Origin: Amphibalanus amphitrite
Taxonomy: Eukaryota; Arthropoda; Thecostraca; Balanomorpha; Balanidae
NCBI RefSeq assembly: GCF_019059575.1
Contig: NW_024881538.1
Location: forward strand, 868,001-932,000
Reading direction: 5' to 3'
Length of the DNA stretch: 64,000 nucleotides
The notes under the pieces are model-generated. The model was given only the letters and a program-made list of their open reading frames with translations. It was not told the origin of the DNA and did not search any database. A program made the position numbers and the translations under genes. Below are positions 6,301 to 9,300 of this stretch, piece after piece (within the stretch, counting starts at the first letter, position 1; the number at the start of each line of letters is the position of its first letter).

Positions 6301-9300
6301 ACAGGGCTCCGTAAATTTGACCGCGTCACGGAAGCCCGATTGGAGCTAGGCTGGCCTACGTTCGACGCGATGATCGATCTGCGCGATGTGCAGCGAATCT
6401 ATCATGTAATGCGGCAGAGGGACGCATCTCGGCAGCTGAGGGCACTCGTTGAGACTCGGTCACAGGTATCGCTGAGACCGACGCGCTCCACCGCTGATGA
6501 TACTATGCTACAAATCCCTAGGTGTCGTCTGCAGTGCACAAAAATGTCGTTCCCTCACCGAGCCATTGCGACTTGGAACCGCCTGCCACCGGATGTGAGG
6601 CAGTCGAGGGCGGCCAAGTTCAGGCGAAGCATACGCAGTTGTTTGGCGTCCAAATGATCCCGATAGGTATGTCAGTGTGGCTGTGTGACCTCTTACAATG
6701 ATCTGCTCGCTTCATATTTTAACTTACTTTGATTGTGCTTGACGCTGGAGTGTAAGTGCCTGTGTGGTTTCTCCAAAGATAAGCAATACATACATACATA
6801 CATACATACATACAAAGTGCCAGCGACCTACCTCCTCTGGCTCCACCGACAGCAGATACGTCACGAGTATGATGACGCAGTAGCCGCAGACGGCCGTCAG
6901 CTGTTTCGTCGTCGGGATCATGTGTCCAATTCTGGTAACCAGGACAATGATGACAGCAATCAGGGCACCAGCGATGATCCGAACATACCTAAAACAGGCG
7001 TGGTGTGGGTCAACTCTCTGAAATTCTCATGAAATTCTCATAGTATGATGCTACAGGCCCTGATTGGGCCCTGGGCCCAATCTCACCAAGTGCGGTACCT
7101 CACTCACCTTGCGGTACCTCACCCACCTTGTTTCACGGTCACAATCTCACCTTGTGACCGTGAAATTTATTTGGCAAAAACTTTGGGTGGGGCATCGGAA
7201 GGTGACATCGAACCGAATAAGTACGCTTAGCTTTAGAACTATTTTGAATTCGTTGTTCCGGGTGCATTTATAAATTAGAGGGTGCCTTTCCTGGGTAATG
7301 AGAAGCTCCTGACAACTATGGAAAAATGACGCTTTTCGGAGTGATCGAGAAACTACTGGTCAAGATAAGACTCCAGAGACGAATGGCTCGCGTAGCCTGG
7401 CATGGTTCCCTTCGGGACCTACTTTGCATGGCCTACAATGGAACTATTCCTACATTATGCAAACCATTCCCATCAGGAGGAAATTACGAGGGCCGAAAAG
7501 TCCTGAAATGGTTTGTGATTATAGCGAATTACACTACGGGCTGTGCTTATTGGTCGACGCCTTCCTGGGCTCAAATGTCTGGCATTTGACAAGCAGCAGG
7601 TGACCATTGCACAATGTCACCATTATCATTATTCGTGTGGTGTTTGGTAACTATAGGTATGTGGATTAACACGGGGTAGTTGATGTAAATGACATGTAGC
7701 TGCTATTTCAGCTCACTGGGAGTCCCAGCTGGGGCTGAGTGGGCGGAGGCGTTGCAGAAATGTACGGCTAATGATACGTTTTTCGTTGCACCGCCACATA
7801 CGTTAACCCGCGCCCTGGTGGGGTCTGTTTATAACGCGACCTGGTGGGGGGGGGGGGGCTATTTTTTGCCCCCCCTCGTATCTCCGAAACTACTGGACGG
7901 ATCCGCAAAATTCAAACGGCGTTCGATAGCCCTGTCAAATTTGTCGAGGGAAACCAAATTTTATTGACCTCGGGGTCACCGATGACGTCACAGGTCAGGT
8001 CAAAGATAAAATGTTTCACCGTTCACGGGGCTTCTAGGGAAAGCGCTATAACACCGAGTAAAGCGCATTTTGTCGAAAATCAGCGATAAGACGTCAGTTG
8101 TCTAGTACATATGTTGCTATTAGAGGTCACTGGTCATACCACGTCAGGTCACAGGTCAGGTCACCAAAGGTCACCAAGGGTCACCACATGAACCCAACTT
8201 TACTAAGGTTGTGCGATGCATGTTTTATGGCCAGTTTTTCATTTCCAACCCAATGGTGTTGGTTATAAGACCATCAGGTACGGTTTAGGTCACTTTCTGG
8301 TGGAGGTCAGGTCAAGGTCAGGTCAAAAAAGGTCAAATTTCAAAGTTGATATTTTTGCATAAAATGGGTATCGATTCGATGCAGCTCGTCGCGGGGAGTC
8401 TAATGGTGGTCTTTGTTTTGCACTACGAGGTCTAGAATTGCTAAAAATTGAGTTTGAAAATTTGACGTCATCAATTTTGAACAGTTTTTTCGCTATAACT
8501 TCGCCAAAAAAAGAGGTATCAATCTAAAATTTGGTATGTGGATGGAAGGCGGTAAGGACTATCACATATATTCCGGTTTTTGCGAAATTCAAAAAAACTT
8601 TTTGGATTTTTTGACTATTATATCCCAAAAATCTATTTTTTGATTTTTGGGGGTCAAAATAAAAAAAATCAAAAATCCGAGATAGCAGTTTTGTAGCCCT
8701 GTCTATTCTACAGCTTTTATGTCCAAACATTTTTCTGTATTTGCAAAGCTATAGGCCTGACAGCTCTTCCCGCGAAACCCTTTTTTGGGTCGAAAACGGC
8801 AGAACATGACGTCATTCTGACGTCATTTCCGGCCAACCTATCATAGCTTTTGGAAAAAATTTTGGTCACAATGTGTAAAATTGATGTCCGGGAGGGTACT
8901 GAAAATTTGGTGACGATCGGCGCAGCAGTTCTGGAGATATATCGAAAAGTCTGGAGGGGGGGGGGGCAAAAAATAGCCCCCCCCCCCCCCCACCAGGTCG
9001 CGGGTTAAAATTCATGCCTCAATCGTGGGGATAGCATTTCGCAACGCTTTCCTGGCTGCGCCCACCAGTGTTCTAATTTCTAACTATAGTGCATGAAGGT
9101 GTCATATCTGGGTGCCTCATCCGTGCTATTGAGTCCTTACAAAGTAACACTTGCCTGCGACTGAACAGATCCTTCAGGAATGCAAGTGCACGATTCTGCA
9201 GCTCGGCCTGAAGACTGTGAATGCGGTGGGCGTACGGAATTATCACTTTGGACGTGACCAGATACAGAAAAATGACGACACTTGTCCACGAGATGAGACC

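Follow-up and report, generated by a model that had tools for sequence, protein, structure and literature searches.

Elements in the window

The window analysed here, a stretch of 64,000 nucleotides from Amphibalanus amphitrite (contig NW_024881538.1, positions 868,001 to 932,000), contains four elements bounded by TTAA (A, C, F, and D) and two damaged relatives of them (E and G), all with bodies crowded with GGTCA or its complement TGACC. The elements and their main parts are as follows.

7803..9008, minus strand: element A, a non-autonomous TTAA element of 1206 bp, single end at 9008 and double end at 7803
7803..7875, plus strand: double end of A, in which two copies of the terminal unit, separated by a spacer, are followed by a G-run and a palindrome
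7965..8335, minus strand: principal GGTCA array of A, at 674-1044 when numbering starts from the single end
8960..9008, minus strand: single end of A, with terminal unit, G-run, and a palindrome with a 12-bp stem
26690..27633, minus strand: element E, related to A but damaged, with TTAT at 27630-27633 in its single end
30556..31707, plus strand: element C, 1152 bp, of an older family
35124..36538, plus strand: element F, 1415 bp
45713..46896, plus strand: element D, 1184 bp, of a young family, matching both non-coding flanks of the autonomous element C33
56104..57116, plus strand: element G, third in the C/D group and degraded, with an intact TTAA on the right and a decayed left end

A first-pass annotation of the sequence had described A, C, F, and D as one family of TTAA-flanked elements, and this observation was confirmed as a whole: the coordinates were exact, and all four carry TTAA at both borders and 13-nt inverted repeats with one or two mismatches. 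The damaged copy it had placed near 26690-27634 corresponds to E, in which one end is kept with TTAT replacing TTAA and the opposite end is lost, and G is a further damaged copy. A scan of the window for TTAA followed by a 13-nt inverted repeat (at most 3 mismatches, 300-3000 bp apart) returned 13 pairs, these four among them, whereas 60 dinucleotide shuffles averaged 0.53 pairs and reached 3 at most; the remaining nine pairs are other repeats or, probably, AT-rich chance matches.

The statement that none of the elements has a transposase was borne out in part, for the frames that were looked at. No stop-to-stop frame listed over A is longer than 95 aa, and no Pfam family was found in one frame of D and one frame overlapping the left end of C; on these grounds coding bodies were rejected. 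Structured RNA was also rejected, with 0 Rfam matches at gathering scores, and two patterns of 30 and 25 nt taken from conserved blocks had no match in viral contigs.

Other repeats surround several of these elements. E and G, both GGTCA-rich and of the TTAA type, each sit inside one of two related elements (25990-28300 and 54999-58093) with long terminal inverted repeats of 20/48-bp units, and F is nested within an element at 34870-37308 whose 28-nt inverted repeat contains GGGGAGAGCGGGGCCAG. A 495-bp element at 44523-45017 has inverted ends that match perfectly over 21 nt, namely TTAA and a further 17 nt beginning AGGGACCC, with a purine start as in Kolobok, and an inverted pair with perfect 13-nt arms adjoining TTAA lies within a large palindrome at 19420-20354.

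Architecture of the ends

The termini of A, C, D, and F all begin with CC. The CCCGCG-like ends originally described needed correcting for D, whose left, single end reads CCTTCG. In all nine elements with both ends read (A, C, D, and F from the window, together with C33, C431, C527, C1173, and the outer element at L067) the terminal unit occurs once at one end and twice at the other, at an offset of 26-27 nt; C33 and C431, like C527 and C1173, are near copies within this comparison, and only 6-8 of 11 letters of the inner unit match in F, C527, C1173, and L067. The hairpins that had been ascribed to every end are present in six of the nine window ends as perfect stems of 8-12 bp (both ends of A, both ends of F, the end of E, and the double end of C), and no perfect stem of at least 8 bp was found at the two ends of D or the single end of C. 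The palindrome formed by G-run and C-run occupies the place of the palindromic internal repeat of piggyBac, and its letters vary from family to family.

Copies in the genome, target duplications, and unfilled sites

The genome searched was the window's own (807,550,619 bp). It holds at least 40 near full-length copies of A at 95-100% identity (window copy included; best 40 of 5092 candidates), at least 40 full-length copies of D, the other 39 at 98-99% (best 40 of 3802 candidates), and at least 40 matches to C, mostly full length, the other 39 at 82-91% (best 40 of 6291 candidates). One copy of F, from which approximately 480 bp (35579-36061) of the window element are absent, lies at the piggyBac locus C778, and another was recognised by eye beside the transposase at L059.

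Target duplication was examined for the A family, using the window copy and 39 further copies with their flanks, of which two have flanks in common with another copy, leaving 38 independent. TTAA stood on both sides in 31 of the 40, an identical off-consensus set of four on both sides in six (TTAG and CTAA twice each, CTAT, and TTAT), and unequal fours in three. Because the departures are matched at the two ends, the four bases represent a target duplication and not element sequence; off-consensus piggyBac duplications that include TTAG and CTAA are on record (described in PMC10813416). Of 44 junctions built from flanks, those of five A copies (L013, L037, L039, L043, and L045) and one F copy matched paralogous sites that lack the element; a match of L035 to itself and one at 70% for window element C were excluded. 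At the five A sites the paralogue has four bases other than those duplicated (ATAA where the duplication is CTAA, for instance), which is what one would expect of diverged paralogues, and the unfilled F site is a single TTAA at two other loci.

Autonomous relatives of the piggyBac superfamily

The PF13843 profile gave 116 matches in the genome, many of them within open frames. Among the 38 loci that were read, 18 are bounded by a TTAA pair with other ends (CCCATTAG, CCCTTTAC, or CCCAGATC types), C33, C527, and C1173 have both G-run ends, C702 and C778 have one, and 15 showed no ends in the sequence examined; an autonomous element with the ends of F was not found among the loci read. C33, 4723 bp long, is bordered by TTAA on either side and contains an open frame of 666 aa; its double end is CCCGCGCCCTGGTG and its single end CCTTCGCCCTGGTG. 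Both of these ends recur in different flanks at C431, again with a 666-aa frame, and C257 has an identical double end and no single end at the expected position. C527 and C1173 (3971 and 3977 bp, with frames of 674 and 590 aa) show the C33 layout with different terminal letters, and in the autonomous elements the frame runs from the single end toward the double end. Query residues 137-664 of the C33 transposase matched that of Trichoplusia ni piggyBac (6x67) at E 1.3e-56; this region takes in the cysteine-rich tail, and the catalytic aspartates of the two proteins coincide in the alignment.

Nucleotides 491-1184 of D align with positions 1022-333 of C33 at 72.7%, and D 283-378 and 153-209 align with the other flank, so that the matches lie on both sides of the transposase frame with order and orientation kept. 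From this two-flank match and the CCTTCG single end common to both, D is best explained as the product of internal deletion in a C33-like element. The transposase locus closest to A is C702, itself a nest of elements, which the bulk of A matches at 75.8% over 723 nt. At L067 a CCCATTAG-type piggyBac (667-3347) lies inside a CCCGCG, GGTCA-rich element (7-3825), with two piggyBac lineages nested one within the other.

In a tree of 25 transposases, rooted by midpoint only, C33, C702, C527, C1173, and C778 formed one side of a branch with SH-aLRT support of 100. Four of these five had been labelled before the tree was built, C527 and C1173 being near copies, and with C778 left unlabelled the label required two changes on the tree, a figure matched by 8 of 500 shuffles. 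In the flank of C778, 15 sites had already been counted in 2.4 kb before its far end was read; when read after the tree, this end (TTAACCCTCG) had the expected form, with the unit twice and a G15 palindrome. Pfam matches in the five transposases of the clade were DDE_Tnp_1_7, a weak DDE_Tnp_1, and one weak DUF7894. A receptor-like DNA-binding domain was rejected for these proteins, as neither it nor any other DNA-binding domain was found with Pfam at E≤1.

Piggybac-type mobilisation, which the first-pass annotation had inferred, is thus strongly supported by the four-base duplication, the unfilled sites, the asymmetric ends, and the DDE_Tnp_1_7 relatives in the same genome. The further copies with paired TTAA ends, the empty sites, and the transposase with matching ends (C33 for D) that it had suggested looking for were all found.

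GGTCA arrays in the window and in the clade

The GGTCA saturation of the bodies also held up against shuffled sequence. Trimmed bodies contain 19 GGTCA and TGACC words in A (shuffle mean 2.4), 20 in C (1.6), 10 in F (1.9), 23 in D (1.8), and 9 in E (1.2), with maxima of 5-7 in 500 shuffles per element. All ten sites of F are TGACC and are confined to 892-1242 of its 1415 bp. In the 50.9 kb outside masked repeats GGTCA is near background and slightly over it (122 compared with 94 ± 8.6), ranking 12 among 60 pentamer classes of the same composition. The most enriched hexamer is AGGTCA, with 81 in the six elements against 6.6 expected from the remaining window. Same-strand pairs no more than 20 bp apart (n = 73) most often showed steps of 5 bp (18), followed by 10 (10), 6 (8), and 11 bp (7), and at the commonest step the hexamers overlap; many GGTCA sites are solitary.

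The response element of EcR/USP is an inverted AGGTCA repeat with a 1-bp spacer. There are 0 such repeats in the six elements, which means that canonical EcR sites are absent from them, and the extended half-site TCAAGGTCA occurs seven times. The idea that receptor sites had been dispersed with the elements therefore stood as far as AGGTCA half-sites have indeed been spread, and it was not supported for regulation, given the missing EcR-type repeats and the mutation pattern described below. Judged from the letters, a function of the arrays as nuclear-receptor monomer sites (AGGTCA half-sites) would remain compatible with these counts.

TGACGTCA is likewise enriched in A and G. GACGTC, mostly in this form, has five sites in A, three in G, and one each in E and F, at positions including 8813-8831, 8469-8474, and 56268-56601. 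Another GGTCA-bearing repeat family lies at 31835-32351, 55510-55929, and 57340-57666 and has a subterminal module in common with A and E, and minisatellites at 23138-23595 and 1656-1883 have units with GGGTCA or AGGTCA.

Within their ends, the autonomous members of the clade have 14.3 (C33), 11.3 (C527), and 10.4 (C1173) non-coding GGTCA per kb, compared to 0-3.2 per kb in six piggyBacs measured outside the clade. Raised counts were also seen beside the non-clade piggyBacs L049, L059, L061, L062, L066, and L067; at L049 and L061 GGTCA is low within the element ends, the array next to L059 belongs, by eye, to the adjoining F copy, and the L067 piggyBac lies within a CCCGCG element. The transposases of C33 and C527 are 37% identical, and the sole alignable stretch of their flanks is a 17-mer of the array itself. 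Site counts in their four flanks are nevertheless 19, 20, 15, and 7, where shuffles average 2.4, 3.4, 3.1, and 1.7 (maxima 7, 8, 9, and 6), and in both elements the arrays stand 5' as well as 3' of the frame. The literature searched yielded no piggyBac lineage with GGTCA arrays or G-run palindromes as a clade trait, and nothing that joined AGGTCA, a nuclear receptor, a transposable element, and TTAA.

Retention of GGTCA and the mutation test

Between related elements, and in counts that are not independent since GGTCA units overlap and cluster, the words kept were 12 of 19 for A/E (against 14% of all pentamers), 16 of 20 for C/D (23%), 5 of 20 for C/G (6%), and 8 of 23 for D/G (8%). Because the arrays themselves can seed an alignment, these figures are to be read beside those obtained with GGTCA masked during alignment, which were 9 of 19 (13%), 12 of 20 (21%), 4 of 20 (5%), and 7 of 23 (7%), respectively. 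Toward the autonomous elements, 11 of 13 words were kept between D and C33 (28%), 5 of 7 between C and C33 (27%), and 11 of 18 between A and an A-like neighbour of C1173 (36%). Fragments at C702 gave 9 of 16 for A (35%) and 7 of 7 for C (55%), with contrary cases of 2 of 4 (63%) and 2 of 6 (39%) for A and 2 of 5 (43%) for C. A C copy at C179 kept 20 of 20 words relative to C in one direction and 20 of 26 in the reverse (70%), and 19 of 22 relative to D (28%). F and its copy at C778 kept 9 of 9 (81%), and A kept 18 of 19 relative to L046 (82%) and 19 of 19 relative to L047 (78%).

The mutation test used the 38 A copies with CpG and homopolymer positions left out. Singletons numbered 14 in 90 GGTCA positions and 125 in 708 positions elsewhere, and in these copies they did not avoid GGTCA (shift test 0.38, base-matched 0.18), so that no host selection was seen. 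The GGTCA sites held 0 of 52 shared variants compared with 14 of 139 singletons (Fisher P 0.013; 0.13 without the two oldest A copies), a modest contrast across the 38 copies, and for all variants the shift test gave 0.047 and base-matched resampling 0.0006. The simplest reading of this small test would be that copies with damaged words spread less well, yet are not removed by the host once inserted.

Proposed mechanism and alternatives

We consider it close to certain that these elements belong to the piggyBac superfamily. A, C, D, E, F, and G would be non-autonomous, MITE-like relatives (approximately 1.0-1.4 kb) of one piggyBac clade, whose transposase would act in trans on ends of the type described above; the enzymology is proposed from the end structure that we observed. 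Such an end consists of TTAA, the CC-starting unit of about 13 nt, the G-run, and, in most cases, the palindrome, the far end alone having the unit again at an offset of 26-27 nt; insertion would take place at TTAA or a near-TTAA site with duplication of those four bases. We read the GGTCA/TGACC arrays as an old trait of the clade that flanks the transposase frame and was inherited by the deleted copies. They are probably cis-acting subterminal sites required for efficient propagation. They could be read by the transposase itself or by a host factor that binds AGGTCA, such as a nuclear receptor. Taken jointly, the piggyBac assignment and a role in cis for GGTCA in propagation have a probability of roughly two in three in our estimation, and the clusters probably serve the spread of the element and not host genes.

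The position of the arrays bears on most of the other explanations. In autonomous elements they stand to either side of the transposase frame, a placement that suggests a function in the life cycle of the element and speaks against their being host nuclear-receptor response elements in copies kept for regulating nearby genes. The enrichment of AGGTCA, the strongest of any hexamer, would suit such host enhancers, as would the Alu elements that are said to have spread DR2 receptor sites, but the inverted repeat with a 1-bp spacer is absent, the commonest step makes the hexamers overlap, and singletons fall in the sites as they do elsewhere; we regard this explanation as improbable. Arrays serving as promoter or enhancer of the transposase gene, merely inherited by deleted copies, would account for those 5' of the frame in C33 and C527, but not for those 3' of it, and presence on both sides is more in keeping with subterminal binding sites than with a promoter by itself. 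Since gene-less deleted copies also retain their arrays between families, we give the promoter similarly little credence. A neutral origin, in which tandem GGTCA steps expanded by slippage and were passed on by descent without function, is somewhat easier to entertain though still unlikely. The 5-bp step is the commonest (18 of 73 pairs), minisatellites with GGTCA are present in the window, and certain fragments show no preference for the word; on the other hand, the sites outlive the remaining sequence between families, are present to either side of the frame in clade members with unalignable flanks, and are in many cases solitary.

Membership in another superfamily that uses TTAA is the least credible proposal, and we would be surprised if it were correct. 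Sola3, like Kolobok, duplicates TTAA, and yet the partners with matching ends encode DDE_Tnp_1_7 transposases. Kolobok, whose TTAA duplication is described in PMC9587614, is given 5'-RR termini there as opposed to the 5'-CC seen here, and it was rejected on the termini and the DDE_Tnp_1_7 partners. A variant of the preferred reading, to which we assign a small though real chance, would tie the mobility of the clade to a host signal: arrays on both sides of the transposase gene would recruit a nuclear receptor, and excision or access of the transposase would depend on hormone state or on receptor activity in the germ line. This would explain why, in this lineage, the arrays outlasted the rest of the non-coding sequence.

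The interior of MITEs is, in our impression, often treated as filler. Here a motif persists inside several families and inside autonomous piggyBacs with 37%-identical transposases and unalignable flanks, and this persistence makes a role of interior cis-sequences in piggyBac transposition open to testing. Comparing shared with single-copy mutations could tell selection acting on the element apart from selection exerted by the host, and if a host receptor does read the motif, transposon activity would be linked to host signalling.

Comparison with known systems

Alu repeats, which are retroelements, reportedly spread AGGTCA-type half-sites as DR2 response elements. The spreading of half-sites is alike in the two cases, but the spacing is DR2 in Alu and here mostly a 5-bp step. 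The Pokey and mPok elements of Daphnia, said to be piggyBac elements with MITE derivatives and to insert at a specific ribosomal DNA site and elsewhere, resemble our elements in the derivation of MITEs from piggyBac elements.

T. ni piggyBac has CCC termini, a 13-nt repeat, and a transposase oriented from the short end toward the long one. Its 35-bp left end and its 63-bp right end with an insertion and a duplicated segment, as well as a palindromic internal repeat to which the cysteine-rich domain binds, are described in PMC7351741. The likeness to our elements extends to TTAA insertion, asymmetric ends, the duplicated segment, the palindrome, and a related transposase with a cysteine-rich C-terminus; the differences are the long G-runs beside the palindrome, the family-specific letters of the palindrome, and the GGTCA arrays. 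D showed all of the piggyBac features that were tested on it except a clear palindrome, A the duplication, the ends, and the unfilled sites, and C and F the ends.

For piggyBac copies that are internally deleted and dispersed, the nearest precedent is MER85, derived from human PGBD3 and described in PMC3459987 as non-autonomous, TTAA-inserted, and present in many dispersed copies, with binding at the elements that was, in that account, uncorrelated with nearby regulation. MER85 is given there as 140 bp (PMC3459987), whereas the window elements are 1.0-1.4 kb long and carry the arrays.
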